Below are positions 5,153-52,153 of a stretch of 64,000 nucleotides of DNA, piece after piece. The stretch lies in contig JADZCN010000158.1 in NCBI GenBank assembly GCA_020851565.1, positions 1 to 64,000 of the forward strand, given 5' to 3'. The position numbers and the translations under genes were made by a program. Each line of letters begins with the position of its first letter. The first letter of the stretch is position 1. A model generated the notes under the pieces. That model saw nothing but the letters and a program-made list of their open reading frames with translations, ran no database searches and was not told the DNA's origin. The stretch is from Acidobacteriota bacterium. GTDB taxonomy: Bacteria > Acidobacteriota > Vicinamibacteria > Vicinamibacterales > UBA2999.

Positions 5153-5351
5153 GGACTTGGGCCTTGGGGCTTGGGACTTGGGACTTGGGGCTTGGGACTT
5201 GGGGCGTGCGACTTAGGACCTGGGACTGGAGACCTGGGAAGTGAAGGCCTTGCGGCTCACAGAACCTCAGAACCTCAGAACCTCAGAACCCCAGAACCTC
5301 AGAACCCCAGAACCTCAGAACCCCAAGCCCCACGCCCCAAGCCCCAGGACC
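5153..5351. repeat. Spacer repeat: CTTGGG(A/G) and AGAACC(T/C)C families between convergent genes
   Basis: The whole spacer is short-period repeat. The left part repeats GGGACTTGGGGCTT, the middle repeats CAGAACCTCAGAACCCC, and the right part returns to CCCCAAGCCCCACGCCCC, the complement of the left part. The ends can therefore pair as a long imperfect stem. It lies between the stop codons of the CcmH-like gene and the M24 peptidase, where a two-way terminator would be expected, but there is no U-tract. Confidence 0.85.
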
Positions 5352-9439: not shown

Positions 9440-9969
9440 CGGCCCTCTCCCGGGGCGCTGCTCGTCGCCATCGACGCCGCGCGGCGGACGGCCTCGCGGA
9501 TGCGCATGTAGGTGCCGCATCGGCAGAGGTTCCCGTTCATGCCGGCGGCGATCTCCTCGTCCGAGGGATTCGGCGTGCGTGCGAGGAGTGCCGCTGCCGT
9601 CATGATCTGCCCGGCCTGGCAGTAGCCGCACTGCGCGACGTCGAGCTCCACCCAGGCGCGTTGCACCGGGTGGCTGCCCGGCTCGGACCCCTCCGCACCC
9701 GCCCGCACCTGGTCGTACCCGCCCGCACCTGCCCCGAGCCCTTCAATCGTCGTGATCGCGCGACCGGCCGCTTTGCCGACCGGCAGCATGCACGCACGCG
9801 TCGCGGCACCATCCACGTGCACCGTGCAGGCGCCGCAGAACCCGCCGCCACACCCGAACTTCGTGCCGACCAGCCCCAGCGAGTCGCGGAGCGCCCAGAG
9901 CAGGGGCATCTCCGGGTCGAGCTCGAGCGCGTGTGTGCGGCCGTTCACCGAGAGCGAAATGGATGGCAC
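9436..9969 (-). CDS. 2Fe-2S subunit, isoquinoline 1-oxidoreductase alpha (IorA) type
   Basis: About 177 residues from GTG 9969, chosen because GGGAGG sits 7 bases upstream and the first residues ([15 protein letters not shown]) start the ferredoxin domain at once. A longer ATG start at 10086 would add 39 low-complexity residues and has no such site. Two 2Fe-2S clusters are visible: the plant-type motif CGGGFCGAC with a later Cys (residues about 39-60), and the helical pair CGYCQAG and CRCG. The protein feeds electrons from IorB. Odd: the linker between the two cluster domains is longer than I expect and is encoded by a stretch of the GCACCTG spacer repeat (9694-9734). Confidence 0.9.
9694..9734. 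repeat. GCACCTG-family repeat inside the IorA coding sequence
   Basis: The 18-mer CGCACCCGCCCGCACCTG at 9694-9711 also occurs at 52466-52483 in the spacer of the two-component genes, and its complement resembles the 26566-26645 spacer. Here it is read in frame and gives the linker text around QVRAGAEG between the two FeS domains. Confidence 0.7.
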
Positions 9970-10089
9970 CGAGGAACCTCCCGTCGGTGCATCAGACGTT
10001 CCCCGCACGAGCGCAGTCCCTCCCTCGTCCCACGATTGGTCACCGAGCGGGGCTGGGAGGTGGGACGGGAGGCGGGGGGGGGCCATTGA

Positions 10090-10379
10090 GCGATTGCTTA
10101 TTGGCGATTGAGCGATTCACTTAGCGACCGGGCGATTTCAGCATTGCGCATTGGATTGGGTGATTGGGGCATTGGGTGATTGGGGCATTGGCGATTCGCC
10201 CGTGCACCGCGGTGCGGCGAGGCAGGTCGCCGCCGCCGTCAGCGCGGCGATACAACTCGACACGCGCAATGACTCAATCACCCGATGACCCAATCGCCCA
10301 ATCCAATGAACAATGCCCCAGTCACCAATCACCCAATGAATCGCTCAATCATCAATCAGCAGTCACCAATGGACAGGCC
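10090..10379. repeat. Spacer repeat: GATTGGGC / CAATCGCC family with internal dyad
   Basis: About 290 bases between the IorA start and the propeller stop, both on the minus strand. Left arm (10090-10195): GATTGAGCGATTC and GATTGGGGCATTGG units. Right arm (about 10265-10379): the complementary CAATCACCCGATGACCCAATC units. A GC-rich centre (about 10200-10260) lies between. Related spacers are at 46250-46390 and 49738-49996. I see no gene here. Confidence 0.85.
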
Positions 10380-13300
10380 TCAGATACCGGCCGCGGCGGC
10401 CGTCAACTCCGCCGCCGTCTGCCGGTAGAACTTGAACTCACTCAGCTGGTCGGCCGTCGGCCGGCCGACCCAGCGGCCGCTCTCGCCGTAGAGCCTGGTG
10501 AGCCGCGACAGCAGCTCGCGCGCCTGGCGCTTCCGGTCCGTCATCTGCGCGTCGCCCGCCGGGGCCTTCTGCACCTTGTCGGCCACCGGCGCGAACTCGC
10601 GGATGGCGCCCGCTACCTGCACCTGGAAGTCCGCCCACACCTTGCGATCCGGCGCCGGGGCGTCGATGCGCGGGTCGTCCTTCACCTCGACCTTCTGCTC
10701 CAAAGTCCGACCGCCGGAGACGAGCCGCACGGTGTAGACGCCCGGCGTCACATACGGGCCCGCGAGGTTCCCCCGCGGCCCATCGTCGTCGCCGAAGCCG
10801 CCGCCGCGGACCGGCAGGTCCGCGTGGCGAAGGTTCCATACCACGCGGTTCACGCCACGCGCACGCGCCGGGTTGAGCGTCTGCACCAGCGTGCCGGACG
10901 CGTCGTGCACCGAGAGGGTCACCTCGCTCGTGGGATTCGCGAGCCAGTAGTCGATGATGGCGCCGTTCGGCGGGTTCTCCCCGCGGAACAGCATGTCGCC
11001 GGTGTGCGCCTTGAGGTTCGTGTAGCGAATCTGCTCCGCCGTGTCGATGGGGAAGAGGTGCGCATCGCTGCCGATGGCCGCCGGCGTCAGGCCCTGCAGC
11101 GCCGTGAGCTGGTCGAGGATCCAGATGCCGCGCCCGTGCGAGGCGAGCACCAGGTCGTTGTCGCGCGTCTGAATGGTGAGGTCGTTGAACGGCAGCGTGG
11201 GCATGTTGTTCTTCAACTCAACCCAGTTCTGCCCGCCGTTCACGCTGACGAAGAGCCCCAGCTCCGTGCCGAGATAGAGCAGGTTCGGGTTCCGGTGATC
11301 CTCGCGGATGGTGCGTGCCACACGCTCGGAAGGCAGGTCGCCCACGATGGACGTGAACGTCTTGCCGAAGTCCGTGGACTTGAAGACGTAGTTCTTGAAG
11401 TCATTGCTCCGGTGGTTGTCCACGGTGACGTACACCGTGCCGTCCGCGTGGCGCGATGCCTCGATGCCCGCGAACCACGACGAGGCGGGCAGCCCGGAGA
11501 ACCGCGACTCCGCACTCTCGAAGGTCTTCCCATCGTCCATCGAGATGCGGAACTTGCCATCGTCGGTGCCCACGTAGAGCAGGCCGCGCCGCCGCGGCGA
11601 CTCGGCAATGGCCGTCGTGCCCGGGTAGTACGGCACGCCGTCGTCGATCGACAGGATGTTCTCGTCGGGCAGCCGGCCCATCAGCGGCAGCGTGGCGCGA
11701 TCCACGCCGCTCGTCATGTCGCCCAGGTCCTGCCAGGTCAGCCCGCGATCGCGCGACCTGAACAGGTGCTTGGCACCCGCGTAGATGGTGGCGCTGTCGT
11801 GCGGGGAGATAAGGATGGGCGCGTCCCAGTTGGCCGGGTGCATGGCGTTGCCCAGCACCTGTTCGGGGACGCCCTTCCCCCATGTGTTCCAGTTGCGGCG
11901 ATCGCCGATGGCACCGGTCGGATCGCCTGGCCGGACGTCCTGCACCTGCCACGTGCGCGTGTCGTTGCGCTGGAGCCCGAGGAACTGCGAGGCCGAGAAG
12001 ACAATGCGTGGATCCTTCGGGTCGGGGACCGCGAAGAACCCGTCGCCGCCGCACAGCCGCGCCCAGTGATCGTTCAGCACCCCGTTCGACGTCCAGCTCG
12101 CGTTCGGGCCCACCCAGCAGCCGTTGTCCTGCAGGCCGCCGTAGACGTTGTAAGGGTGCGCGTTGTCCACGGCGACACGGTAGTACTGGGACACCGGCAG
12201 CGACGTGACGTACAGGAACTTGTTCCCGCGGTCGTACGAGATCCCGATGCCGCCGTCGTCCAGCTTCACGACATGCCGCGAATCCCGCGGGTTCACCCAG
12301 ACGAAGCGATCGTCGCCGTGCAGCGTCTGGCGCGGCGTCGTGAACGTCTCGCCCCCGTCGTTCGAGTACGAGTAGCTGTTCATCATGTAGATACGGCGGT
12401 CGTCGTTCGGATCGACGGTGGGCTGGCTGGCGTACATCGGGCGCGGGTTCCAGTCGGACATGAACCGCCACGTGCGACCGCGGTCGTTGCTCCGGTAGAT
12501 GCCGCCCCTGCGGTTGATGTAGGCCGTGGACGCGTTGTAGCGCGTGCCCTGCTCGATGCTCACGTAGACGATGCTCGGGTCCTTGCGGTAGACGGCGATG
12601 CCGACGCGCCCGTACTCGCCGTCAGGCAGGCCGTTGCCGGTGAGCTTCGTCCACGTGGCGCCCGCGTCCGTGCTCTTCCAGAGTGCGCTGCCCGGGCCGC
12701 CGCCGTTGAAGCCGAACGCGCTGCGGCGGCGCTGGTAGGTGGCGGCGTAGAGAATGCTCGGGTCGCGCCAGTCCATCGCCACGTCCGTGGCGCCCGTGTC
12801 CTCGTCCACGTAGAGCGTGCGGGTCCACGTGCGGCCGCCGTCCATCGTGCGGTACAGCCCGCGGTCCCCGCCAGGACCCCACACCGATCCTTGTGCCGCC
12901 ACGTAGGCGATGTCCGGGTTCGTCGGGTGCAGGACGATGCGGCCGATGTGCTTGCTGGCCCTGAGGCCCACGTTCGCCCAGCTCTTCCCGGCGTCGGTCG
13001 TCTTGTAGATGCCGTCGCCCCAGCTGACGCTCTGGCGGTTGGCGCGCTCGCCGGTCCCCACCCAGATGATGTTCGGGTTGGGCTGGAAGATGGCGATGTC
13101 GCCGACCGAGTGCACGGGCTCTTTCTCGAAGACGGGCTCCCACATGATCCCGTTGTCGCGCGTGCGGAAGATGCCACCGGTCGACGAGGCGACGTACATG
13201 ACGTACGGGTCGGACTCGACCACGTCCATGTCCACGAAGCGGCCGGACATGGTGGCGGGGCCGATGTTCCGGAGGCGCAGGCCCGAGAGATCCCGGGACT

Positions 13301-13444: not shown

Positions 13445-16111
13445 CTACGCGTCGTGCAGCGCGCGCGCCGGATCGATGCGCGTGGCTCGCCGCGCGGGGA
13501 TGACCGCGGCCAGCGTGGCCGCCAGCAGCAGCGCCACCGCCACCAGCCCCAGGCTGAGCGGATCGCGCGGACTGACCTCGAACAGCTGTCCCTGCAGGCA
13601 GCGGCCGGCTGCCGCAGCGCCGACAATCCCGAGCACCAGGCCGACGGTGACCGGTTTCAGCCCGTGGCCAACCACCTGGCGCACCACCCGGGCCGGCGAA
13701 GCGCCAAGCGCCAGGCGCACGCCGATCTCGCGCGTGCGCTGGGCCACCAGCCACGCGATCACGCTGTAGATGCCGAGCACGGCCAGCAGCAGGCCAGTGG
13801 CCGCCAGCAGCGACATCAACACGGTGTTGAATCGCGACTGCGCCATCGTCCGGCGCAGGCCGTCGTCCAGCGTGCCCAGGCCGTAGACGGGCAGGGATGG
13901 ATCCAGCGCGCGCACGGCGCCGCGGATGGTGCCCGCCAGCGCGGCAGGGTCGCCATCGGTGGGCCTCGCCATCACGTCGAGGGTGTTGTTCACCCAGCCC
14001 CACGCCTCCGGTGGGATCTGCGCGAGCGGCAGGTAGAACTCGGGCACCGGCGCGTTGCCCGGCCCGCGCGAGCGGACGTCGGCCACGACGCCCACCACGA
14101 TCTTCCAGCGGGGGCTATCGGGACCGCCCTCGCAGCACGTCACGCGCTTGCCAACGGGATCGGTGTCGGGGAACGCGGCGCGCGCCAGCGTCTCGTTGAT
14201 GATCATCACGAGCGGCGCCGATCGGATGTCCGCCGCTTCGAACATCCTGCCCTCCCGGAGCGGCAGGCGCAGGACGCGGAAGTAGTCCGGCGTCACGAAG
14301 TGCGCGAGGCTGTTGACGACGCTCTCCATCCGAAGCGGCCTGCCCTCGGGACTGAGCCCGTTCGAGACGCCGGTGCCCACCAGCGGCGCCTGTGAATCCA
14401 GGGCGGCGTGCGCCACCCCGGGCGACGCCGACAGCGTCGAGACCAGCTGTTCGAACGAGGTCCTCACGACATCCGCGGTGCGGTACTGCGCGGCCGGCAG
14501 GCCCACGCGCGCGCGCAGCACCCCGGTGGTGTCGATGCCGATGGGCACCTGCTGCAGGTTGATGGCGCTGCGCACCATCAGCGCAGCGGCGGCCAGCACC
14601 ACGATCACGAGCGCCGCCTGCGCCGCGATCAGCAATTGACGGACCCACGGGTTGATGGCGCCCGCGACGGCACCCTTGCCGTCGCCCAGGTCGCGACGAA
14701 GGTCGCGCGAGGTGGCCCACCACGACGGCAGCACGCCCACGACCACGGCGCTGGCCACGGCAAGGCCGACGGCGGTGGCCAGCACCGTGACGTTCAGCGA
14801 CGCGTCGGCCAGGCGCGGCACGCCTTCGGGCGCCGCGGCAATCAACGCGGGCAGCGCCCACATCGCGGCGAGCACGCCCGCCAACGCGCCCAGGAGCGTG
14901 AGCACCAGGCTCTCGGCCAGCACCTGGCGGACGATGCGCCCGCGGCCCGCGCCGACCGCGGCGCGGATGGAAAGCTCGCGTGCGCGGACGGCGAGCCGTG
15001 CGAGCAGCAGGTTCGCGGCGTTCCCGCACGCGATCACCAGGACGAGGGCCACGGCTCCCAGCAGCACCAGCAGGCGCAGGCGGAAGCTGCCGACCACGGA
15101 CTCGTCGAAGCGTTGGCTGATGGCGCCGCGGTCCACGTTGTACCGCGCGTGGTCCCGGCGCAGCCCTTCGGCAATGCGGGCCAGCTCGTCGTTCACTTGC
15201 GCGTCGGTGAAGGCCGCCCTCCGGCGCGCATACATGTCGAGGAAGTGTTCGTCGTACATCGTCAGGCGCTCGGGCGTGAACGCGATGGGCACCATCACCT
15301 CCGCGCCGTCCATGACCGTGGAGAAGGACGCGGGCATCACGCCAATCACCTGGTAGGGCTCACCGTTCAGGTGCAGGGTCTGCCCCAGGACGTCCATGCG
15401 GCCACCGAAGCGCCGCTGCCACAGGCCGTGGCTCAGCACCACCACGCCGTTACGCCCCGGCTGGTCCTCGTCTGCCGTGTAGGCGCGCCCCAGGGCGGGC
15501 GACACCTGGAACACCTGGAAGTAGCTGGCCGTGGTCCGCAGTGCCGACACCCGTTCGGGCTGGTGGTCGCCGGCCAGGTTGAAGCTGATGAACGCGGCGG
15601 CCGCCAGCGGGTCCAGCGTGGTGGCGCGCTGACGGATGTAGTCGAAGTTGCCGGCGGAGGTGTTGGTCGCGCGGTCCTGCCGGGTCGTGTAGACGCTCAG
15701 CACCCGATCGGGCTCGGTGAAGGGGAACGGCGCCAGCAGCACCGCGTGCACCACGCTGAAGATGGCGGTGGTGGCGCCGAGGCCGAGGGCGAGCGTGAGG
15801 ACGACGCTGGCGGTGAAGCCGGGCTGGAGGCGGGCCTGCCTGAGGGCGAAGCGCACGTCCGTCACGAAGTCGGCGATCCACTCGCGGAGCGCGAAGGCGC
15901 GATCACGATCGGTGCCCAGGCGCTGCAGCGTGTCGGCGATGCGGGCGGAGTCGCCCATCCGTCGCTCCGCCTCGGCCCGGGCGGCTGCTGGTGGCAGCCC
16001 GCTGTCCATGAGATCCCGGGTGAGCAGATCCAGGTGATGCGACAACTCGTCGCGCACCTCTTCTTCGACCGGCACCCGCCACAACAACGAGCGAAGGGAT
16101 CGGCGCGCCAT
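13445..16111 (-). CDS. ADOP-type (acidobacterial duplicated orphan permease) MacB-like ABC permease
   Basis: An 888-residue protein counted from ATG 16111, 2 bases after the PadR stop. Residues about 10-65 form the ADOP-specific N-terminal cytoplasmic domain (EEEVRDELSHHLDLLTRDLM). Two MacB-like periplasmic/FtsX repeats follow, each with transmembrane segments; the FtsX signatures are CGNAANLLLARLAVRARELSIRAAVGAGRGR and, in the second repeat, AQRTREIGVRLALGASPARVV (read in pieces). ADOP proteins lack their own ATPase partner in the locus, as here, and their cargo is unknown. The pairing with a PadR regulator directly upstream is typical and suggests control by a small ligand or stress. Confidence 0.9.
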   Translation of the reverse strand: MARRSLRSLLWRVPVEEEVRDELSHHLDLLTRDLMDSGLPPAAARAEAERRMGDSARIADTLQRLGTDRDRAFALREWIADFVTDVRFALRQARLQPGFTASVVLTLALGLGATTAIFSVVHAVLLAPFPFTEPDRVLSVYTTRQDRATNTSAGNFDYIRQRATTLDPLAAAAFISFNLAGDHQPERVSALRTTASYFQVFQVSPALGRAYTADEDQPGRNGVVVLSHGLWQRRFGGRMDVLGQTLHLNGEPYQVIGVMPASFSTVMDGAEVMVPIAFTPERLTMYDEHFLDMYARRRAAFTDAQVNDELARIAEGLRRDHARYNVDRGAISQRFDESVVGSFRLRLLVLLGAVALVLVIACGNAANLLLARLAVRARELSIRAAVGAGRGRIVRQVLAESLVLTLLGALAGVLAAMWALPALIAAAPEGVPRLADASLNVTVLATAVGLAVASAVVVGVLPSWWATSRDLRRDLGDGKGAVAGAINPWVRQLLIAAQAALVIVVLAAAALMVRSAINLQQVPIGIDTTGVLRARVGLPAAQYRTADVVRTSFEQLVSTLSASPGVAHAALDSQAPLVGTGVSNGLSPEGRPLRMESVVNSLAHFVTPDYFRVLRLPLREGRMFEAADIRSAPLVMIINETLARAAFPDTDPVGKRVTCCEGGPDSPRWKIVVGVVADVRSRGPGNAPVPEFYLPLAQIPPEAWGWVNNTLDVMARPTDGDPAALAGTIRGAVRALDPSLPVYGLGTLDDGLRRTMAQSRFNTVLMSLLAATGLLLAVLGIYSVIAWLVAQRTREIGVRLALGASPARVVRQVVGHGLKPVTVGLVLGIVGAAAAGRCLQGQLFEVSPRDPLSLGLVAVALLLAATLAAVIPARRATRIDPARALHDA

Positions 16112-16113
16112 GG

Positions 16114-16446
16114 CTACACCCTGGCGAGGACCCGGGTGACCGCGGAGGCAAACGCCTGCCATGCCTCGGTGTCGCGCGCCAGCTGCTGCCGGCCCGCGCG
16201 GGTGAGGCGGTAGAGCTTGGCCCGCCGACCCAGTTCGGACACCCCCCACTCGGCCTCCACCCAGCCCTTCTTCTCCATCCGGTACAGGGCCGGATAGAGC
16301 GATCCCTCCTCAACCGGGAAGGTCTCACCCGTGGCGCCCTCGATCCACCGCGCGACGGCATAGCCGTGCATGGGGCCGCGCGTCAGCGTCTTCAGGATCA
16401 ACGTTTCCAGGGTGCCGTGCAGGTAGTCCACCGGGCTGCGGCTCAT
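16114..16446 (-). CDS. PadR family transcriptional repressor
   Basis: A 110-residue protein from ATG 16446 (MSRSPVDYLHGTLETLILKT). The PadR winged helix is clear: LETLILKTLTRGPMHGYAVARWIE, then EEGSLYPALYRMEKKGWVEAEW and RRAKLYRLTRAGRQQL. A further upstream in-frame start (16497) would include the palindrome described below and is unlikely. The stop lies 2 bases before the ADOP permease start, so the two form an operon. PadR proteins repress promoters by binding inverted repeats as dimers, and ADOP-PadR pairs are common in Acidobacteriota. Confidence 0.93.
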   Translation of the reverse strand: MSRSPVDYLHGTLETLILKTLTRGPMHGYAVARWIEGATGETFPVEEGSLYPALYRMEKKGWVEAEWGVSELGRRAKLYRLTRAGRQQLARDTEAWQAFASAVTRVLARV

Positions 16447-16462
16447 GCGTTGATACCTCGAT

Positions 16463-16478
16463 TGTCTATATATAGACA
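16463..16478. promoter_or_regulatory. Perfect 16-bp palindrome, likely PadR operator
   Basis: TGTCTATATATAGACA is a perfect palindrome with an AT-rich core in very GC-rich surroundings, 16 bases upstream of the padR start codon. The core TATATA can also serve as a minus-10 element, so repressor binding would block transcription of the padR-ADOP operon. Operator identity is inferred from position and symmetry. Confidence 0.7.
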
Positions 16479-16565
16479 CACATAGCCTGCCGCGCAAGTG
16501 GGGGCGGCCAGACGGCTGGGACGAATCGAGGGGTACCAGGGCCCTGCCGGCGGTAGGATGCGCGC

Positions 16566-16868
16566 ATGCTGGGAAACCGCCCGATGACCGACTGGATCCG
16601 GCAGTACTCGGAGAGCCATCAGCACCCGGTCAATCGGATGCTGCACACCTTCGGCATCCCGCTGATCGTGGTGTCCATCGTCATGGCGATCGCGGGTGTC
16701 GTGTGGCCTGCACTCTGGTGGCCGGCTCTCGGGCTCTTCGGGCTCGGCTGGTCCCTGCAGTTCATCGGCCACGCCGTGGAGGGCAAGCCGCCCGAGTTCT
16801 CCAAGGACTGGCGGTTCCTGTTCGTCGGCCTGCGGTGGTGGCTGGCGAAGCTGGCGGGAAAGGCCTGA
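16566..16868 (+). CDS. DUF962 / Mpo1-like small membrane protein
   Basis: A 100-residue protein with one long or two short hydrophobic segments (about 32-66) and the family's conserved histidines: HQHPVNRMLHTFGIP near the N-terminus and FIGHAVEGKPPEF. In yeast the Mpo1 relative is an iron-dependent dioxygenase that alpha-oxidises 2-hydroxy fatty acids. For the short bacterial forms this activity is an extrapolation. The start at 16566 follows TAGGA, and an internal ATG at 16584 (MTDWIRQYS) is an alternative. It stands alone between the divergent padR and the convergent kinase gene. Confidence 0.8.
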   Translation: MLGNRPMTDWIRQYSESHQHPVNRMLHTFGIPLIVVSIVMAIAGVVWPALWWPALGLFGLGWSLQFIGHAVEGKPPEFSKDWRFLFVGLRWWLAKLAGKA

Positions 16869-16910: not shown

Positions 16911-18659
16911 CTACTTCCCCGGGTTCTCCAGGGTCAACTGCCGCACCCACACGCCACGCGCGGTCTCGCGCGCGTCGGGGAGCGGCGCCGTGAACTCGTT
17001 GCTCATCCGCTCGCCGGCGGGGCGCGCCGGTGCCTTCTTCAACCCGCCCACGCCGCGGAGTACGGTGGCCAGCTCACCGGACAGCGGCTGTGGCGCGGGC
17101 GCCGCGCCCGGCACGGGCCGCGGGAGCGAGTCGAACATGCGCTCGAAGGCCGGCGACGGAGGCTCGGGGCTCGCGAAGACGACGAAGTGCTCGCGCCCGC
17201 CCGCGCTCGACACCTGCCAGTTGGTCCGTTCTCCGTTCACGACGCCCGGGATCTCGTGGCGCGAGCCTGGCGGCAGCGGGTTGGCCAGCTGCTGACCCGG
17301 CAGCGGGAAGAGGAGATACGCCTCGCCGCGATCGTCTTCGTTGACGACGTAGACGTAGGTGGGGACCGAGCTTTGAATCTGGAAGGAGAGCTCATCGCCC
17401 GGAGCAATCCGCGAGCCCGGCTGCAGGCGAACGGCGGTTCCGCCCTGGTACCGGTAGAACGCTGCCTCCACTTCGTAGCTGTCCGCGGTTGTGGTCGTGG
17501 CCGGAGGCGCAGCCGCGACGGCCGCGACTGAAGCAGGCACGGCACTGGTTTCGGGCACCGCACTCGTCGACGACGGCCACCACTGATATCCCGCTCCGAT
17601 CGCAACGGCGAGGGCTGCCACCAGCGGCAGCGCCCAGCGCGGAATCGGGGGCGGGACCGGCTCGGGCACGACTTCGTCCTGGCTCGCGCGGTGCAGCGCC
17701 GCCTCGAACTCGCCCGCCGTCTGGTAGCGATCCTCCGGCCGCTCGGCCGTCGCCCGATCCACGACGTGGATGAACGCCTCGGGAAGCTCGGGCCGCACGT
17801 CACGCAGCAGCCGGCGTGGCGCGTGTGCCTCGTGCTGCCGCTCGATGTCATCACGACTCTGGCCGTCCACCGGGTAGCTGCCCGTAGCCAGGTAGAAGAG
17901 GAGGATGCCGAGGCTGTAGATGTCCGACGCCTTCGTGCGTGGGGCACCCGCCATCACCTCGGGCGCCAGGTAGATGGGCGTGCCGGCCGTCCGCCGTCCC
18001 GTGCGCGCGGGCGAGGCCTTCAGATCGTGCCCGGCCCCGAAGTCCATCAGCACGGTGCGCCCGCCGTGGGCGCGCATCACGTTGTTGGCCTTGATGTCGC
18101 CGTGCAGCAGGCGCGCGCCATGCACGGCCGCGACCGCGCGGCACAGGTCCTGGCCAATCAGCATCGTCTCGCTGGCGCTGAAGGGGCCATGGGCGCGCAC
18201 GAGCCAGTGGAGCGTCCGGCCCCGGACGAGCTCCATGGCAATGCCCACCTCCTGGCCAATCCGCTCCGCCGAGTACACGCGGACGACGTTGGAGTGGTTG
18301 ACCTGCGCGAGCAGGCGCGCCTCGTTGAGGGCGCGACGGATGTCGTGGTCGTCGCCGTCGCGGCCGGGACGGATCACCTTGAGGGCGATCTCGAGGCCCA
18401 GGTCCTGATCCAGCGCGCTGTAGACCGTGCCGTACGATCCGCGCCCGAGCTCTCCCGTGATCTCGACGGGCCCCCAGGTCTCGGGGATGGGCGAGCTCGC
18501 CTGGCAGACGCTCTCGAGCCGACGGAGCTCTTCGAGGATGGTCGTGGATTCGGGATCGGCATCGGTGGGCGCGGTGGTCCAGTCCACGGGCAGGCCCTTC
18601 GCGATGGTGGATGCCACCGAGAGCAGGCGCGGGTCCTCAGCGTCTGGGCTTGCGGTCAT
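16911..18659 (-). CDS. Hanks-type Ser/Thr protein kinase with C-terminal DUF4384 sensor domain
   Basis: A 582-residue protein. The kinase domain (about 65-325) has the glycine loop GELGRGSYGTVY (69-80), Lys94, Glu113, the catalytic loop L-H-G-D-I-K-A-N-N with Asp188, DFG 206-208 and APE 232-234. The usual HRD is HGD, so this is a non-RD kinase that may not need activation-loop phosphorylation. One transmembrane helix (about 342-358) follows, then an Ala/Thr linker and a DUF4384 domain outside the membrane (about 385-505: VYVVNEDDRGEAYLLFPLPG). DUF4384 is a known frequent partner of caspase-like proteases. The gene overlaps the ECF sigma gene by 23 bases, so the two are co-expressed. A sensor-kinase role over the sigma factor is inferred. 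Confidence 0.9.
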   Translation of the reverse strand: MTASPDAEDPRLLSVASTIAKGLPVDWTTAPTDADPESTTILEELRRLESVCQASSPIPETWGPVEITGELGRGSYGTVYSALDQDLGLEIALKVIRPGRDGDDHDIRRALNEARLLAQVNHSNVVRVYSAERIGQEVGIAMELVRGRTLHWLVRAHGPFSASETMLIGQDLCRAVAAVHGARLLHGDIKANNVMRAHGGRTVLMDFGAGHDLKASPARTGRRTAGTPIYLAPEVMAGAPRTKASDIYSLGILLFYLATGSYPVDGQSRDDIERQHEAHAPRRLLRDVRPELPEAFIHVVDRATAERPEDRYQTAGEFEAALHRASQDEVVPEPVPPPIPRWALPLVAALAVAIGAGYQWWPSSTSAVPETSAVPASVAAVAAAPPATTTTADSYEVEAAFYRYQGGTAVRLQPGSRIAPGDELSFQIQSSVPTYVYVVNEDDRGEAYLLFPLPGQQLANPLPPGSRHEIPGVVNGERTNWQVSSAGGREHFVVFASPEPPSPAFERMFDSLPRPVPGAAPAPQPLSGELATVLRGVGGLKKAPARPAGERMSNEFTAPLPDARETARGVWVRQLTLENPGK

Positions 18660-19299
18660 GGGCCATCTCCTCAGCCAGCCGCATCAGGGCGCGGCTCACG
18701 GCCATATGGGCGGCGGCGGCGCTCGACTTGCCGAGCGACGCGGCCACCTCCACGTGTGACAACCCCATCTCGACGCGGGCGATGATGGCCTCGCGGTCCT
18801 CTGGGCGCAACCGGTCCATGGCAGCTTCGTAGCGGGCGAAGGCCTCGCTGCCCATGGCTTCTTCCAGGGGTGAGGGCGCGTCGGCGGGCACGTCGGCCTC
18901 GAGCGGCCCGGTGGGGCCGCGCCGCCGGTATTTGCGGGCGATGTCGCGGATGGCGTTCCAGAGCGTGGTCCAGACGTACTCGCGGAAGGCGCCGGGGTGG
19001 CGCGGCTCGAAGCTCTGCAGTTGCCGGAAGACGCGGATTAGGGTTTCCTGGACCAGGTCCTGGGTGTCCAGGGCGCCGCGCGCGGCGGGCGGGAGGCGGC
19101 CGTGGGCCCAGCGGCGCAGACGGGTCTCATAACGGGCGAACAGCTCGTCGCACGCGTCCTGGTCGCCGGCCCGGGCTTTCAGGACCAGGTCCAGCGTGGC
19201 CGCGGCGTCGGGCGGCTCGACCGGCCGGGGGGCCGGGCGGTGGTCGGCATCGTCCATCAGGGGAAGGCCGCCGAGCGCGAGTGTCGCGGTGCCAATCAT
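18637..19299 (-). CDS. ECF-type RNA polymerase sigma factor linked to a Ser/Thr kinase
   Basis: A 220-residue protein. Region 2 spans about residues 40-125 (QDACDELFARYETRLRRWAH, then DTQDLVQETLIRVFRQL and AFREYVWTTLWNAIRDIARKY). Region 4 spans about 155-215 (DRLRPEDREAIIARVEMGLSHVEVA, then MAVSRALMRLAEEM). No anti-sigma gene is adjacent. Instead the downstream gene, overlapping by 23 bases, is a transmembrane kinase. Control of ECF factors by partner kinases is established (EcfP/PknT in Vibrio). The start is uncertain: ATG 19299 adds 14 residues before a second ATG at 19257, and neither has a strong ribosome site. The regulon probably includes the divergent protease genes (inference). Confidence 0.9.
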   Translation of the reverse strand: MIGTATLALGGLPLMDDADHRPAPRPVEPPDAAATLDLVLKARAGDQDACDELFARYETRLRRWAHGRLPPAARGALDTQDLVQETLIRVFRQLQSFEPRHPGAFREYVWTTLWNAIRDIARKYRRRGPTGPLEADVPADAPSPLEEAMGSEAFARYEAAMDRLRPEDREAIIARVEMGLSHVEVAASLGKSSAAAAHMAVSRALMRLAEEMAHDRKPRR

Positions 19300-19349
19300 A
19301 CGCCTGATGGTGGAAACGTCGCGGGGAAGTCCGTCGAACAGGGTGATCA

Positions 19350-19440
19350 GTTCCGAAACGGGCGCTGGCGGCGTTCACGACAGTCGGAACGGTTTGAGAT
19401 TGCCGTTTCAGATAGCGGGCGGCTGGGCTAGACTACGCCC
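19350..19440. promoter_or_regulatory. Divergent promoter region with GGAAC motifs on both strands
   Basis: The 266-base spacer between the sigma gene and the C11 protease gene holds GGAAC on the plus strand (19386-19390) and on the minus strand (complement at 19350-19354). GGAAC is the usual minus-35 element of ECF sigma factors. On the plus strand a TAGACT lies at about 19429-19434. No exact ECF minus-10 was established, so autoregulation and joint control of both operons is only a suggestion. I see no other feature in this spacer. Confidence 0.25.
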
Positions 19441-19565
19441 CCCTTCGCTCTCGTCGTCGCTGGCCTCGTCCGTCCGCATCCGGTGTCGTTTCCTGGGCTG
19501 GCCATTCTCGTTCGACCGGCTCGAGCAGTCACGCAGCCGCCCGTCATGGGCTCGGGGGTGAAATC

Positions 19566-20843
19566 GTGGCGAATGGAACCAGCACGTCTCAGGCCACCGG
19601 CACGTCAGGGAACCCGCCCAAACACATGTGGACCGTCATGGTCTTCATGGGAGCGGATGGCGTGGAAGGGAACAAGGAGTTGGCCGACGAGGCCGAGGCC
19701 GATATCAAGGAGATGAAGGATGTCACCCCAAGCGACTCCCTCAACATCCTGGTGGAGTTGCACGGGGCGGGTGAACCGAGACGGGAATACATCGTAGGCA
19801 AAGGCGCCTGGAAAAAGGAATCGGTCAGTGCCTCGAAGCCCAGCGACTTCGCCAACGGTATCGCGTTGCTCGACTTCATCGGCTGGGCCCTGAAGACCGC
19901 GCACCACGACCCCAAGGAGCCCGAGCACTACTCGATTCTCGTGCTCTGGGGGCATGCCTACCGATTCGCGATTGGGAACACCGAGACGCAGGCCGGCCTC
20001 GATGCGTTGGACTTCGCGGAGCTCGCGAAGGTGCTCGCGGTATTCCAGGAGCGTATCGGGAAGCAGTACAACCTGCGGGAACCGAAGCTGGACATCGTCG
20101 GATTCGATGCCTGCGAGCTCGCGACCATCGAAATGGCTTATCAGCTCCGGCCCTACACCGATTACCTTCTCGCCTCCCAGATTGGCATCCCGCTGCCGGG
20201 GTGGCCTTACGATCGCGTCCTCGAGCGCCTTGCGGTACCTGAAGGGAGGCTGATGGGCCCGGCGGAGTTCGGCAGCTGGACGGTCAGGCGCTACTGTGAA
20301 TTCTATCGTCCCTTCGAACAGGTTGTGTCGCTGTCCCATCTCAACCTGAGCCACGCACGCAATCTTTCGCAGAAGACCGATCGACTTGCGCAGGCGCTGG
20401 CCATCGCGATGGACGACTCCCCTGACGAGCTGGAATTGGTGACGCGCCTCTTCGAGTTCTCACAAACAGTGGAAGGGCCGCCACTGGTCGACGTCGTCAC
20501 CCTGTGCCGTCTCCTGATGCGCCACAGCGGCGCTGACGCGGTGCGGGCGGCTGCGAAGGAGCTGGGAGACGCCCTGTTCGGTCCACGCGCGCAGCCGGGC
20601 GGCCAGAACGCGCAGGGGCTGCCCAAGAGCCAGGCAGGTGACTGCAAGCCCTTCGTCGTGGAGCATGGCAGCAACTCGGCCGAGGGTGCCGGACTCCACG
20701 GCGTCAGCCTTTACGCGCCTCACGTCGCCCCTGGACACGACTTCGGTGCGGCCAGTCACTTCTACGAGAAGTTCGTGTTCGTCAGGGACACGCTGTGGCG
20801 CGACCTGGTGCGTGCCCTCGCCCTTCCGAATGTGTGCTGCTGA
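19566..20843 (+). CDS. Clostripain-type (peptidase C11) cysteine protease
   Basis: A 425-residue protein with a GTG start. The clan CD catalytic pair is intact: His130 in SILVLWGHAYRF and Cys183 in IVGFDACELATIEMAY, each preceded by the hydrophobic strand expected of a caspase-hemoglobinase fold (MWTVMVFMGADG starts the first strand). There is no signal peptide or membrane segment, so it should act in the cytoplasm. C11 enzymes typically cut after Arg/Lys and are often self-processed; no clear cleavage loop was recognised here. It is followed by a small membrane-anchored protein and a TPR-CHAT protein and is divergent from the sigma-kinase pair. Two clan CD proteins side by side suggest a proteolytic relay, which is inferred. 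Confidence 0.88.
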   Translation: MANGTSTSQATGTSGNPPKHMWTVMVFMGADGVEGNKELADEAEADIKEMKDVTPSDSLNILVELHGAGEPRREYIVGKGAWKKESVSASKPSDFANGIALLDFIGWALKTAHHDPKEPEHYSILVLWGHAYRFAIGNTETQAGLDALDFAELAKVLAVFQERIGKQYNLREPKLDIVGFDACELATIEMAYQLRPYTDYLLASQIGIPLPGWPYDRVLERLAVPEGRLMGPAEFGSWTVRRYCEFYRPFEQVVSLSHLNLSHARNLSQKTDRLAQALAIAMDDSPDELELVTRLFEFSQTVEGPPLVDVVTLCRLLMRHSGADAVRAAAKELGDALFGPRAQPGGQNAQGLPKSQAGDCKPFVVEHGSNSAEGAGLHGVSLYAPHVAPGHDFGAASHFYEKFVFVRDTLWRDLVRALALPNVCC

Positions 20844-20870
20844 CGTCGGTCTTGCCAAAAGGAGCCGTAG

Positions 20871-21167
20871 ATGCCAAAGCAGGAGAACAAAGGCGGCGAA
20901 ACAGCCGGAAGGAATGGCGTCGGTCCGAGTCCCGACGGCCAATCCCCCTGCGCAAATGACGCCGCGATGAACATCCTCCGGAGCGCAGCCGGCTTGTGCG
21001 GCCTGCTCGTTGTCGCGGTGGTCTCGCCCCTGGGCGGCGGCGGCTCTACCTGCACCAATGCGAGCAGCCCACAACGGTTGGCCTTGTCGGAGGTTCGTCG
21101 CAAGGCGGAGCTCCGTGAACGTGAAGCGCAGAATACGCCCACCCCGCCCCCCGCGGCCAAGCCCTGA
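20871..21167 (+). CDS. Small membrane-anchored protein between C11 and CHAT genes
   Basis: A 98-residue protein, not recognised. A hydrophilic N-terminal stretch of 32 residues precedes one hydrophobic segment (about 34-55, MNILRSAAGLCGLLVVAVVS), then GGGGSTC, a charged helix (LSEVRRKAELREREAQ) and a Pro-rich end. It could be a type II membrane protein, or, from the internal ATG at 20967, an exported small protein. It begins 27 bases after the C11 stop with a purine-rich leader (AAAAGGAG) and ends just before the CHAT gene, so it probably belongs to the operon. Its frame is chosen over the overlapping upstream extension of the CHAT frame, which reads like a non-coding shadow. Confidence 0.6.
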   Translation: MPKQENKGGETAGRNGVGPSPDGQSPCANDAAMNILRSAAGLCGLLVVAVVSPLGGGGSTCTNASSPQRLALSEVRRKAELREREAQNTPTPPPAAKP

Positions 21168-21210
21168 CGCCGCACGGCAAGCGGTGGCGACGTGCGCACC
21201 GCGCCCTCGT

Positions 21211-24200
21211 GTGACGCTTCGGCGCGTCGTGGCGCTGGTGTGGGCCGCATGGGCGGCGACCTCGTGCGCACCGGCGTCCTGCCGGGCGCCGGCGTTCGCC
21301 GCCAGGGCTGAAAGCATCACGGCTCTCATCCGGGCAGGCGACTACGTTGCCGCGGAAGCTGAGGCCCGCGCTTTTGTGGAGGCGGTAGGAAGGGCACGGG
21401 GGGAGCGGTCGCTCGAGGCAGCCGCGGCATCAGACCTTCTCGTCCGGGCGTTGGTAGCCAACGGGAAGGGCTCGGCGCCGGAGACCCTCGCGGTCGCCAG
21501 CGAAACCGCCGAGCGCTGGCAAGCGCGGCTTGGCTCCCAGGATCCCGGCCTAGTGCCGTCCCTCCAGAACCTCGGGGACGTGTTTGCGGCGGCGCACAAG
21601 TACGATCGCGCGATTCACGTGCTGGAGCGCGCACTCGCTACTCAGGAGAAGGAAGTGGGACGCGGGGTGGAACTCACCCAGACGCTCAACCGCCTGAGTC
21701 ACGCGTTGAGGGAGGCGAACCGCTTCGACGACGCGGTGGCGTTCGCCGAGCGCAGTGTGCGGCTCGCCGCGGAGCCCGGAGACCGTCGTGAGCTGGCGCG
21801 GTCGCTTGAAGTGCTGGCCCGCGCCCTCCAGCGTCGCGGCGACTATGAGAAGGCCCGCGACATCGTGGTCAAGGCGGTGAACCTGCGTCGTGTTGATGAT
21901 GCGGATCACCCCGAGTACATCGAAACACTCTCGGTCCTCTCGTACCAGGAGTGGTCGCAGGGCCGGCTGGACGCGGCGCGCGATGCGGCCGCGGCTGCGG
22001 TTGCCCTGGCGCAAAGAACGTTGCGCGCCGATCACCCAACGCTCGCCCAGTCACTGCGCCAGCTAGCCGGCGCGAGGTTGGATCTCTGGGACATCGAGGG
22101 CGCCCACGATCTCGGCAGTCAGGCGGTGGCCATGGCGGAGCGTGGCCTCTCACCAACGCATCCAGCCATTGCCGGTTACCTGAACGATCTCGCGGCTTCG
22201 ACGGTCTTGCTCGGCCGCTATGAAGACGCTCGACGGCTGTACGAGCGGAGCCTGGCTGTCGCCGAGAGACAGTACGGTGAAGCGCACGAGCTGAGCGCCA
22301 CCATCATCTACAACCTCGCCGAGGTCGATGCTCATCTCGGCGACCTCAGCCGCGCCGAGCGTGAGTATCGGCGGGCAGGCGCTGTCTGGCAACGATTGCA
22401 TGGGGCTGATCATCCCTTCGTGGCGCAGGCGCTCACCGCGCAGGCCTTGGCCGTGAGGGACCAGGCCCGCCCCTCCGAAGCTCTCGAACTACTGGAACGC
22501 GCCCTGGCGATCAATCAACGGGCCCTTGGACTCCAGCACCGCGCCGTGGCCAACACCCTCACGCAGATCGCCGAGGCCTTCATGAGGCTGGGGCGAAGCT
22601 CCGATGCCAGGCGGGCCTCGGACCGTGCACTTCGCATCTGGGTCGCTGCGGGGTCACCTGACGCTCACGAGCATGCCGTCGCCCTCGCGCTGTCGGCGGA
22701 GCTCGGCTTCGAGCGGGGCGACGTTCGTGCCGCACGCAGCGCCTACGAGCGGGCCCTCGCGATGACGGGGCGCGTGTTCGGGACTGGACATCCGGAGTTC
22801 GCAGACGTGCGCCTGGGCCTGGCCCGCACGCTGGCGCGCTCCGGCGAATATGTCGCCGCGTTCGCCGGCGCGCGGGATGCCGAGGAGATTGGGCGAGAGC
22901 ATCTCCGGCTGATGCTGCGATCCCTGCCCGAGCGCGAGGCGCTCAACTACGCGCGCGTCCGACCCCGGGGACTGGAATTGCTGCTCTCCCTCGCGGGGCT
23001 GGAGCCGCGTGCCGCCGCGGCTGGCCTTGACGCACTGATCCGCAGCCGCGCGTTGGTCCTCGACGAAGTCGCGGCTCGTCGAAGGGATGCTGCGACAGCC
23101 GCGGATCCGAGCCAAATCGCCCTTGCGGGGGCTCTTGCGTCCGCTCAACAGCGCGTGGCCAACCTCATCGTGCGTGGCGCAGGCTCCATGTCCCCGACCC
23201 GCTACGCGGGACTGCTGGAGGCCGCCCGGAACGACAGCGAGTCGGCCGAGCGCCGGCTGGCTGAGGCCAGCGCCGCATTCAGGGGCGAGCGGAGCCGCGC
23301 ACAGGCGGGGCTCGAGTCAGTCACGAGGGCCCTGCCGCCGAACACGGTACTCGTGTCGTTCGTCAGGTATCAGCAACTGGCCCTCGGCGGCCAGGCTCGG
23401 TATGCCCAAGCGATCGGGCGGGGCCCCGCGGCAGACGAGACGCCGTCGTACGTCGCGTTCGTGCTGCGGGCCGGATGGACGCCCCAGGCCGTGAAACTGG
23501 GGGCAGCCCAGGCCATCGACGAGCTCGTGTCGAGATGGCGGGGTGACATCGCCGCTGAGGCGCTCGAGCCACGGACGGCCTCAAGTGTGCGACGCGTGTC
23601 GTCTCGCGTGTCCGGCGCCGGACTCCGAGCGAAGATTTGGGACCCGTTGTCGCAACACCTGAACGACGTTGGTCAGGTGCTCATCGTTCCTGACGGAACG
23701 TTGGGGCTCGTGCCCTTCGCGGCCCTGCCGGTCGGGCGCGAGTCGTTCGTCCTTGAACAGGCGCCGCCGATCCACTACCTCTCCGCCGAGCGCGATGTCG
23801 TATCGGCGGGCGCCAGCAGCGTGTCTGCCACCGGGATGCTCGCAGTTGGCGGCCCCGCGTTCGACGATGCCCCCGGGTCGCCCCCCGCATCGAGCCACGC
23901 GTCTGCCGGAACCGCCACAGCGCTATCGGCACGGCGAAACGTGAGAACCGCCTGCGCGAGCCTGGAGTCGCTGCGATTCCAGCCGCTGGACGGGACTCTG
24001 CAGGAAGCCCGCGAGCTATCGCGCCTCTGGCCCACTCCGCTCGGCGCCGCGCGCACGCTCGTCGGGAACGAGGCCAGCGAGCATGTGTTCAAACAACAGG
24101 CTCACGGCTATCGGGTCCTGCATCTGGCCACGCACGGCTTCTTCCTCGACGGGTCCTGCCTCCCTGAATCCACGCGTGCTGGCACGCGCGGCGTCGGTGG

Positions 24201-24660
24201 GCTGTCGAGCACGAAGGCCGTCGAGAACCCGCTGCGCCTCTCGGGTCTCGCCCTGGCCGGCGCCAACCGGCGCGCCCAGGCGCGCGCGGACGAGGACGAT
24301 GGCATCCTCACTGCCGAGGAGGTGGCCATGCTCGACCTGCAGGGCGTGGACTGGGCCGTGCTCTCCGCCTGTGACACGGGTGTGGGCGAGATCAGGGCCG
24401 GCGAAGGCGTCTTCGGTCTGCGCCGCGCCTTCCAGGTGGCCGGCGCCCGTACCGTCGTCATGAGCCTCTGGTCCGTGGACGACCAGGCCACGCGCGCGTG
24501 GATGCGCGCGCTGTACGAGGGACGCTTCCAGAAGAAGCTCTCCACCGCGGATGCCGTGCACCAGGCCAGCCTCAGCGTGCTGCGCGATCGGCGCGCGCGG
24601 GGGCAGAGCACGCATCCCTTCTACTGGGCGGCGTTCGTGGCGGCGGGCGATTGGAGATAA
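21211..24660 (+). CDS. Exported TPR-CHAT protein (caspase-like CHAT protease domain)
   Basis: About 1149 residues. An N-terminal hydrophobic segment (TLRRVVALVWAAWAATSC) looks like a lipoprotein or signal sequence, which is why GTG 21211 is preferred. GTG 21121, with a GGAG upstream, or ATG 21010 are longer options that overlap the small gene. About ten kinesin-light-chain-like TPRs follow (roughly 21300-22830, units such as YDRAIHVLERALATQEKEVG). A helical linker leads to a C-terminal CHAT domain (about 23690-24655) with both catalytic residues: His in HLATHGF (codon 24133-24135) and Cys in LSACDTG (codon 24370-24372). CHAT proteins are separase/caspase relatives; TPRs usually sense a partner. 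The likely export, beside a cytoplasmic C11 enzyme, is notable. Confidence 0.85.
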   Translation: MTLRRVVALVWAAWAATSCAPASCRAPAFAARAESITALIRAGDYVAAEAEARAFVEAVGRARGERSLEAAAASDLLVRALVANGKGSAPETLAVASETAERWQARLGSQDPGLVPSLQNLGDVFAAAHKYDRAIHVLERALATQEKEVGRGVELTQTLNRLSHALREANRFDDAVAFAERSVRLAAEPGDRRELARSLEVLARALQRRGDYEKARDIVVKAVNLRRVDDADHPEYIETLSVLSYQEWSQGRLDAARDAAAAAVALAQRTLRADHPTLAQSLRQLAGARLDLWDIEGAHDLGSQAVAMAERGLSPTHPAIAGYLNDLAASTVLLGRYEDARRLYERSLAVAERQYGEAHELSATIIYNLAEVDAHLGDLSRAEREYRRAGAVWQRLHGADHPFVAQALTAQALAVRDQARPSEALELLERALAINQRALGLQHRAVANTLTQIAEAFMRLGRSSDARRASDRALRIWVAAGSPDAHEHAVALALSAELGFERGDVRAARSAYERALAMTGRVFGTGHPEFADVRLGLARTLARSGEYVAAFAGARDAEEIGREHLRLMLRSLPEREALNYARVRPRGLELLLSLAGLEPRAAAAGLDALIRSRALVLDEVAARRRDAATAADPSQIALAGALASAQQRVANLIVRGAGSMSPTRYAGLLEAARNDSESAERRLAEASAAFRGERSRAQAGLESVTRALPPNTVLVSFVRYQQLALGGQARYAQAIGRGPAADETPSYVAFVLRAGWTPQAVKLGAAQAIDELVSRWRGDIAAEALEPRTASSVRRVSSRVSGAGLRAKIWDPLSQHLNDVGQVLIVPDGTLGLVPFAALPVGRESFVLEQAPPIHYLSAERDVVSAGASSVSATGMLAVGGPAFDDAPGSPPASSHASAGTATALSARRNVRTACASLESLRFQPLDGTLQEARELSRLWPTPLGAARTLVGNEASEHVFKQQAHGYRVLHLATHGFFLDGSCLPESTRAGTRGVGGLSSTKAVENPLRLSGLALAGANRRAQARADEDDGILTAEEVAMLDLQGVDWAVLSACDTGVGEIRAGEGVFGLRRAFQVAGARTVVMSLWSVDDQATRAWMRALYEGRFQKKLSTADAVHQASLSVLRDRRARGQSTHPFYWAAFVAAGDWR

Positions 24661-25169: not shown

Positions 25170-25266
25170 ACCTCAGAACAGGGTTCTGAGGTTCTGGGGT
25201 TCTCGGGTTCTCAGGTTCTCGGGTTCTGGGGTTCTGAGGTTCTGAGGTTCTGAGGTTCTCGGGTTC
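25170..25266. repeat. Spacer repeat: GGTTCTGA family
   Basis: About twelve tandem degenerate copies of GGTTCT(G/C)(A/G)G lie between two minus-strand genes. The left end includes one complementary unit (GAACCTCAGAACAGGGTTC), giving a short dyad. Confidence 0.85.
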
Positions 25267-25279
25267 CTGTCGAGCTGCG

Positions 25280-28404: not shown

Positions 28405-28423
28405 GAGGACAGTCTAGTGCACA

Positions 28424-28552
28424 GTCGGTTCTGAGGTTCTGAGGTTCTGAGGTTCTGCGGTTCTGGAGTTCTCGCGTGCACCCGAACCTCAGAACCCCAG
28501 AACCCCAGAACCCCAGAACCTCAGAACCTCAGAACCTCAGAACCTCAGAACC
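28424..28552. repeat. Spacer repeat: GGTTCTGA / AACCTCAG family with internal dyad
   Basis: The left arm (28424-28470) repeats GGTTCTGA and the right arm (28488-28552) repeats the complement AACCTCAGAACCCCAG, joined by about 17 bases. The whole could fold into one long hairpin. It fills the spacer between the DinB start and the M14 stop. Confidence 0.88.
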
Positions 28553-40920: not shown

Positions 40921-40937
40921 GACAGCCCCTCACTCTA

Positions 40938-41162
40938 GCAGGGATCAGGGATCAGGGATCAGGGATCAGGGATCAGGGGTCAGGGATCAGGGGGCAGGGA
41001 TCAGGGATCAGGGGCCAGGGGTCAGAGAGGTGCCGTTGGGATATCTGCTCTCCGATCCCTGATCCCTGATCCCCGATCCCTGATCCCCGATCCCTGATCC
41101 TCGATCCCTGATCCCTGATCCCTGATCCCCGATCCCCGATCCCTGATCCCTGATCCCTGACC
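40938..41162. repeat. Spacer repeat: GATCAGG / CCTGATC family with internal dyad
   Basis: The left arm (40938-41020) repeats GATCAGG. The right arm (41050-41162) repeats CCCTGATCCCTGATC up to the very stop of the next gene. About 35 unrelated bases separate the arms. This is the clearest of the two-armed spacer repeats. Confidence 0.9.
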
Positions 41163-44663: not shown

Positions 44664-44665
44664 GG

Positions 44666-44760
44666 GAGTATAGGGTTCTCGGGTTCTCAGGTTCTCAGGT
44701 TCTGGGGTTCTGAGGTTCTGGGGTTCTGAGGTTCTGGGGTTCTCGGGTTCTGGGTTCCGG
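44666..44760. repeat. Spacer repeat: GGTTCTGG/GGTTCTGA family, one orientation
   Basis: About eleven degenerate copies of GGTTCT(C/G)(A/G)GG lie between the TIGR00300 start and the next minus-strand stop. No complementary arm is present. Confidence 0.87.
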
Positions 44761-44770
44761 GGACGTTGAA

Positions 44771-52147: not shown

Positions 52148-52153
52148 ATCGTC

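Follow-up and report, generated by a model that had tools for sequence, protein, structure and literature searches.

A locus in Acidobacteriota linking a TPR-CHAT protease and a C11 protease to an ECF sigma factor: a candidate envelope signalling module

The outer part of DdvA from Myxococcus xanthus is a TPR-CHAT protein whose His-Cys site is incomplete. DdvA is a transmembrane anti-sigma factor that holds the ECF sigma factor DdvS (PDB 8rot, 8rw5). In the type III-E Craspase, the TPR-CHAT protease Csx29 cuts Csx30, an inhibitor of the ECF sigma factor CASP-sigma (PMC10028731), while ECF54 sigma factors have CHAT proteins in their conserved gene context and no classical anti-sigma factor (PMC8999054). 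A sigma factor gene adjoins the gene of a transmembrane Hanks kinase in the ECF43 pairs EcfP/PknT and EcfK/PknS (PMC13147305, PMC8999054). In the C11 family of proteases (MEROPS C11), which includes clostripain and PmC11, the S1 aspartate of a D-x-C motif confers Arg/Lys specificity (PMC4850288). Our literature search found no report that joins CHAT, clostripain and a sigma factor.

Gene content of the locus and likeness to described systems

We analyzed a stretch of 64,000 nt, called the window throughout, from the 6.06-Mb genome of a soil-type acidobacterium, and assigned gene identities by Pfam matches above the cut-off together with alignments for each family. All five genes of the original prediction are present, and both proteases carry their His/Cys residues. 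The start of the TPR-CHAT gene was revised: the program-made reading frame begins at 21010, inside the small gene, and either of the two likely GTG starts gives the protein a hydrophobic, signal-peptide-like N terminus.

Features of the divergent sigma-kinase and protease genes in the window
Feature	Position	Strand	Evidence
Hanks-type Ser/Thr kinase, one TM helix and extracytoplasmic DUF4384	16911..18659	-	Pfam, 6 orthologs aligned
ECF sigma factor	18637..19299	-	Pfam Sigma70_r2 and r4_2, family alignment
-10-like box GCTAGACTACG, 139 nt before C11	19427..19437	+	common to 4/6 loci
C11 (clostripain-family) cysteine protease	19566..20843	+	Pfam, alignment, clostripain-type PDB chains
98-aa protein, small ORF	20871..21167	+	AGGAG-like ribosome site, hydrophobic stretch
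TPR-CHAT caspase-like protease	21184..24660 (start GTG 21184 or 21211)	+	Pfam CHAT and TPR_12

The Pfam scores are 148 bits (Pkinase) and 50 bits (DUF4384) for the kinase, 90 bits (Peptidase_C11) for the C11 protein and 229 bits (CHAT) for the TPR-CHAT protein; the 98-aa protein has no Pfam family match. The sigma and kinase genes overlap by 23 nt. The predicted catalytic residues were borne out by alignment: His130 of C11 is nearly invariant and Cys183 invariant across 11 homologs, and the CHAT protein carries both motifs, HLATHG and LSACDTG, with the catalytic His and Cys invariant across 10. Genome-wide, we counted one DUF4384, five CHAT and 62 Sigma70_r4_2 matches, and a search with the window C11 protein found a single C11 homolog. 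Because the sole DUF4384 gene and the sole detected C11 gene lie within 8 kb of each other together with one CHAT and one sigma gene, the grouping is not due to chance.

The AF2 model of the TPR-CHAT protein (pLDDT 79) has a separase- and DdvA-like predicted fold, with Foldseek matches to separase (E 3e-15) and DdvA (E 2e-11) at TM-scores of only 0.2-0.3 over the full superhelix. When its CHAT part was used as a direct sequence query against PDB, no CHAT match resulted. In contrast to DdvA, the window TPR-CHAT protein is separate, bears a signal segment, has no anti-sigma domain and keeps its active-site His and Cys; the membrane partner is a kinase-DUF4384 protein and a C11 protease is added. 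As in Craspase, a TPR-CHAT protease appears coupled to an ECF sigma factor, but here it is predicted to be extracytoplasmic and has a membrane kinase or anti-sigma factor as its partner. The window shows no CRISPR array, and none of the scanned genes encodes Cas7-11, Csx30 or Csx31. The likeness to ECF54 is one of gene context, which in ECF54 includes a carboxypeptidase and a subtilase with no mention of kinase-DUF4384 or C11. The novelty of the system is thus narrower than first proposed, because DdvA-DdvS, Csx29-Csx30-CASP-sigma and ECF54 are precedents for coupling CHAT proteins to ECF sigma factors; the C11 side is what stands as new.

Sigma-kinase adjacency, the ECF43 trait, is found here as overlapping genes and is kept in six orthologs. 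Unlike the ECF43 factors, in which the acidic DxxDxxQE motif of sigma2.2 is absent and a phospho-Thr motif stands in its place, the window sigma factor retains the acidic motif (DTQDLVQE) in the family alignment. Consequently, the EcfP phospho-switch model is not directly transferable to it.

Conservation of the sigma-protease neighbourhood

Full-length kinase orthologs occur six times among 193 genomes of the class, and all six are divergent from a C11 gene and a TPR or TPR-CHAT gene, including one locus (L018) whose contig stops within the TPR part. This layout is found across at least two families of the order, and the divergence of its proteases is large. The neighbourhood is thus conserved among relatives, as had been anticipated. 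Sigma-kinase genes accompany TPR-CHAT genes in other phyla too, namely Gemmatimonadota and Krumholzibacteriota.

Three further counts give strong support to a sigma-protease link. A sigma factor with a one-pass membrane partner is found at 18 of 20 CHAT-linked C11 loci, compared to 0-1 of 13 unlinked ones. Among 20 sigma/anti-sigma loci picked by an anti-sigma profile, 14 have TPR-CHAT next to the anti-sigma gene or fused with it, and at three the stretch examined contains no CHAT and no C11. Finally, each of the five CHAT genes in the source genome has a sigma gene nearby.

The kinase is the variable part. It is kept in its own clade, whereas in other Acidobacteriota a predicted anti-sigma factor occupies the same slot. 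Since C11 and TPR-CHAT are more often accompanied by the predicted anti-sigma factor than by the kinase, we regard the kinase as one interchangeable input and not as the core. The original prediction was to be refuted if the C11 and CHAT genes lay mostly apart from the sigma-kinase pair; literally, they do, but another sigma factor with a membrane partner then adjoins them. The wider unit is therefore C11, TPR-CHAT, an ECF sigma factor and a one-pass membrane partner.

At three loci (L160-L162), and probably also at a fourth in the source organism's own genome as read from its sequence (L030), anti-sigma domain, one TM helix and TPR-CHAT form a single protein with the architecture of DdvA. The three fusions keep the CHAT His and Cys that are incomplete in DdvA. 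The presence of anti-sigma domain and TPR-CHAT in one protein places the CHAT protease outside the membrane.

The C11 protease and its repeat partners

The window C11 shares with clostripain and PmC11 the catalytic His/Cys pair and the S1 aspartate of the D-x-C motif (Asp181 in GFDAC), and is predicted to be Lys/Arg-specific. It differs from them by its linkage to TPR-CHAT and sigma genes and by lacking a signal peptide, from which a cytoplasmic location is predicted. In further contrast, this set of C11 proteases has either a C-terminal tandem-repeat tail with Lys or Arg in every unit, as at L131, or a separate small repeat protein. The window C11 itself has no repeat tail; the slot of its 98-aa neighbour holds a protein with the 6-aa repeat RGIELK in L018 and a 54-aa reading frame in L023. 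For a repeat-tailed C11, the AF2 model has a pLDDT of 50. This C11 side, with its Lys/Arg repeat tail or separate repeat protein, is new, and the fast change of the tails is an apparently undescribed feature.

In two species of one genus, the C11 proteins are 29% identical while most flanking genes are 85-94% identical, and C11 is patchily distributed (11/193 genomes of the class and 41/396 of the phylum). A scan of genome contigs with the window C11 alone gave no match; the alignment of the kinase C terminus, used as query, did. It is conceivable, at low odds, that C11 carries its own disposable multi-site substrate, either as short Lys/Arg-containing peptides in tandem, closed by the conserved tail [V/F/I/W]-[K/R]-N, or as the detached small repeat protein. 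Activation of TPR-CHAT and the sigma factor would then trigger clipping of the array, which could serve as a fuse or a timer or set free repeated signal peptides, with unit sequence and copy number shifting fast between species.

Proposed signalling route and alternative readings

We propose that the locus is an envelope-to-RNA-polymerase signalling module in which a one-pass membrane partner provides the functional coupling between an extracytoplasmic TPR-CHAT protease and an ECF sigma factor (probability roughly 0.6). The proposal is built on gene content, conservation, topology read from sequence, fusions, catalytic residues and repeats, and from these we infer every causal step. An outside event would be sensed by TPR-CHAT, by DUF4384 or by both, and the kinase would be changed or the membrane partner cut. 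The sigma factor could then be activated by phosphorylation or by release, by analogy to EcfP/PknT, EcfK/PknS and DdvA/DdvS. C11 would be the inner protease, with its repeat tail or the adjoining small protein as multi-site substrate or inhibitor. The membrane seems to separate C11 from CHAT, so a direct cascade between them is not obvious. The sigma-kinase pairs that have no protease close by and the three anti-sigma loci with neither protease also count against the proposal, and so does the protease operon, where the analysis showed no ECF-type promoter.

The kinase ends in RGVWVRQLTLENPG, and the WVRQL of its tail had suggested, with WVKNL in the C11 tail, a common cleavage site; we dropped this candidate, as the kinase tail is kept where no protease is nearby (L111). 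The predicted ECF promoters before both operons are unsupported, since unrelated genes, too, have the conserved -10-like box in front of them. The rarity of GCTAGACTNCG had suggested a sigma-specific promoter, which we rejected: each of its five genomic copies coincides with or closely precedes a gene start, and four of these genes are unrelated, making a vegetative -10 box more likely. The box GCTAGACTACG is probably a vegetative promoter element.

The divergence and patchiness of C11 would also fit an arms race, in which the sigma factor and its membrane partner detect damage and C11, together with TPR-CHAT, kills the cell. Bacterial conflict systems often use caspase-like proteases as effectors, and ECF sigma factors have been described at EACC2-caspase loci (PMC8195603). 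We nevertheless judge regulated self-killing unlikely: PADLOC models match none of sigma, C11 and CHAT and match the kinase only through its kinase domain, the window has no CRISPR array, and the flanking genes checked have ordinary metabolic, peptidase or permease functions.

A phospho-relay, in which the kinase phosphorylates the sigma factor and C11 or the small protein while TPR-CHAT matures or turns over proteins in the periplasm and has no signalling role, is suggested by some C11 genes without CHAT that adjoin other kinase genes (L099, L100). It is improbable, however, as no other neighbour is as constant as TPR-CHAT, which is also fused to anti-sigma domains, and the sigma factor is mostly absent from C11 loci without CHAT. 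That a sigma-kinase pair and a protease pair merely share a divergent promoter region would suit the vegetative look of the box before C11 and the sigma-kinase pairs without a nearby protease (L111, L113, L115, L116), yet is improbable when all six orthologs keep the layout across more than one family despite large protease divergence, and when other phyla, and loci whose sigma partners are unrelated, show similar linkage.

To our knowledge, a function is established for only a few TPR-CHAT proteins, all of which control a sigma factor. Our data suggest that extracytoplasmic TPR-CHAT proteases may widely have this role in Acidobacteriota, with kinase and anti-sigma factor exchanged as membrane partner and a second caspase-like protease added. 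That bacterial caspase relatives serve as DegS-like envelope signal proteases, and not as death effectors only, is now testable. The recurrence of the arrangement with a swapped partner suggests an unstudied route from an outside event to protein cutting and gene control.

Composition and conservation of the locus

As originally predicted, the window contains five genes at the positions tabulated below, which Pfam assigns to a kinase with DUF4384, an ECF sigma factor, Peptidase_C11 and TPR-CHAT; Pfam gives the small ORF no family. The kinase and sigma reading frames share 23 nt, and both proteases retain the catalytic pair. The mechanically called CHAT ORF starts within the small gene; a GTG at 21184 or 21211 fits better and yields a signal-peptide-like N terminus. 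Chance grouping of these genes is excluded by their numbers in the 6.06 Mb genome: one DUF4384, five CHAT genes, one C11 homolog (search with the window protein) and 62 sigma region-4 matches.

Coordinates of features in the window and in compared loci
Locus	Feature	Positions	Strand
Window	Kinase-DUF4384	16911-18659	-
Window	ECF sigma	18637-19299	-
Window	C11	19566-20843	+
Window	98-aa ORF	20871-21167	+
Window	TPR-CHAT	21184-24660	+
Window	MacB/FtsX permease, PadR and Mpo1-like genes	13445-16868	
Window	Intergenic tandem arrays	5244-5339, 25173-25274, 28418-28561, 40920-41174, 44649-44766, 51200-51367, 52146-52299	
L029	Sigma, TPR membrane protein, TPR-CHAT operon	7815-11872	
L026	C11 beside caspase C14	4149-7593	
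L142	CHAT-DUF4384-trypsin-like fusion	7606-10656	

The proposed neighbourhood is conserved. A kinase profile search of 193 Vicinamibacteria genomes returned exactly six full-length orthologs (898-1002 bits), the next-best match (433 bits) covering the kinase part only. Each of them lies divergent to a C11 gene that TPR-CHAT follows; in L018 the CHAT domain is unseen because the contig stops within the TPR part. C11 is rare, occurring in 11 of the 193 genomes (search with the window protein) and in 41 of 396 Acidobacteriota genomes (profile search). Distant sigma-kinase pairs (L111, L113, L115 and L116) have protease-free neighbourhoods. TPR-CHAT accompanies sigma-kinase-DUF4384 in Gemmatimonadota (L136) and Krumholzibacteriota (L138), kinase and CHAT genes are convergent in Lysobacterales (L140), and a Thermodesulfovibrionia locus (L142) encodes a CHAT-DUF4384-trypsin fusion between a TPR-CHAT gene on one side and, on the other, sigma paired with a protein that has a weak zf-HC2 match.

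The ECF promoters expected before both operons were not found. GCTAGACTNCG lies upstream of C11 at four of the six loci, and its five genomic copies are each at or just ahead of a gene start, four preceding unrelated genes; we read it as a putative vegetative -10 box.

Identity to the same-genus locus L131 is 73-94% for the flanks, sigma and kinase (mostly 85-94%), versus 62% for a 126-aa neighbour, 57% for the C-terminal part of CHAT and 29% for C11. Third-position GC is 0.80 for C11 and 0.79 for CHAT, versus 0.89 for sigma and 0.88 for the kinase. At an unchanged site, the proteases have thus either been replaced or undergone rapid divergence. The permease, PadR and Mpo1-like genes between the kinase and a VPS10-like gene are missing there in L131. 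Many short intergenic tandem arrays with 7-8 nt units (GGGATCA, GGTTCTGA and complements) are spread over the window.

Sigma factors linked to CHAT and C11

The module is broader than originally supposed. Neighbour clustering places TPR-CHAT beside about half of C11 loci, and about 14 C11 loci have a different pair: F4, a sigma-like protein (~190 aa), and F2, a one-pass membrane protein (~270 aa). By its N-terminal helical domain, TM segment and outer domain, F2 looks like an anti-sigma factor. Its zf-HC2 match is weak, passing the whole-protein cut-off in L144, where F4 has only a weak sigma region-4 match. The C-terminal outer domain of F2 proteins, including that of L094, shows weak similarity to copper proteins of the CopC type (E 0.007).

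Corrected for how far each contig extends, a sigma of either family is present at 18/20 CHAT-linked C11 loci versus 0/13 unlinked loci; a more sensitive scan of unlinked loci gave one weak sigma match (L099). Because some of these loci went into building the profiles, and the loci are related by descent, this linkage is a strong association and not a clean probability.

In the window's genome, the five CHAT genes occupy four places, with a sigma gene 0.1-5.3 kb from each; the chance of four places lying within ~2.5 kb of a sigma gene is roughly 0.085 to the fourth power. One (L029) is an operon of sigma, an anti-sigma-like TPR membrane protein and TPR-CHAT. At another (L030), the sigma gene is followed by a protein readable as an anti-sigma::TM::CHAT fusion, in which no Pfam anti-sigma match was found.

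C11 tails and the small protein

Short tandem repeats (KLAGQEGS, TRLGGSGSS, SGALEPSDKS, AGQGNPEK, TKDFPELG, KFTPPYV, RYTDRS, RFSDHS, RFADFG and others) occupy the C terminus of most C11 proteins linked to CHAT and of several that are unlinked; in nearly all of these proteins the repeats lead into a tail containing a [V/F/I/W][K/R]N motif. TRF detects the arrays in DNA, with 18-nt units in L131 and 24-nt units in L100. Lys or Arg occurs in 20/20 hand-listed unit types (probability ~2e-5 at background composition). In PmC11, the D-x-C aspartate confers Lys/Arg specificity (PMC4850288); most C11 proteins here retain it.

Of the six kinase-linked C11 proteins, three have no such tail, the window's among them, and each of these three loci has a small ORF between C11 and CHAT: RGIELK repeated seven times in L018, 54 aa in L023 and 98 aa in the window. 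We infer that the small protein is a detached C11 tail; for the window this reading is based solely on position, since no repeat is visible in its 98-aa protein.

Other C11 contexts were also observed. Repeat-tailed C11 (KLAGQEGS, TKLGGSGSS, KLAGTQDS) occurs without adjoining CHAT in L098-L100, L102 and L104, beside a divergent kinase gene in L099 (a TPR kinase by Pfam) and L100. CHAT-less C11 genes lie beside caspase C14 genes in L026 (an nSTAND1 fusion), L091 and L092 (with DUF7379). L118, L120, L123 and L125 form a separate C11 group with no CHAT, no repeats and long, similar C-terminal extensions (~200-250 residues).

Precedents and a proposed envelope signal module

Kinase activation of sigma has precedents in EcfP/PknT and EcfK/PknS (PMC13147305, PMC8999054). 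Unlike ECF43, the window sigma retains an acidic motif, and therefore its switch must differ from these. Control of sigma by TPR-CHAT has a precedent in Csx29-Csx30-CASP-sigma (PMC10028731).

A structural model of the window TPR-CHAT (pLDDT 79) has separase among its matches, and DdvA at ranks 10 and 12; the E-values are good but the TM-scores low, presumably because the curvature of the long TPR superhelix differs. From its PDB title, we take DdvA-DdvS, the transmembrane anti-sigma and ECF sigma of Myxococcus xanthus (PDB 8rot, 8rw5), to be a further precedent. Coupling of TPR-CHAT to an ECF sigma is already established in three cases, DdvA-DdvS, Csx29-Csx30-CASP-sigma and ECF54 (PMC8999054). 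Searches of an open-access library turned up no account of a kinase-DUF4384 partner, of an added C11, of repeat tails or a detached repeat protein, or of a partner swap, although an earlier description may exist.

Among 20 loci selected by F2 instead of C11 (high-scoring matches, a non-random sample), TPR-CHAT is nearby at 11 and fused to F2 at three (L160-L162), in the order anti-sigma domain, TM near residues 116-155, TPR and CHAT. If the anti-sigma domain is inside, the CHAT of these fusions would be outside the membrane. In 34/51 stand-alone CHATs a hydrophobic segment at the N terminus exceeds a strict threshold; 45/52 C11 proteins have none, with seven exceptions. The best reading of the locus is an envelope signal module, in which TPR-CHAT would act outside, a one-pass partner would provide the link to sigma, and C11 would act inside.
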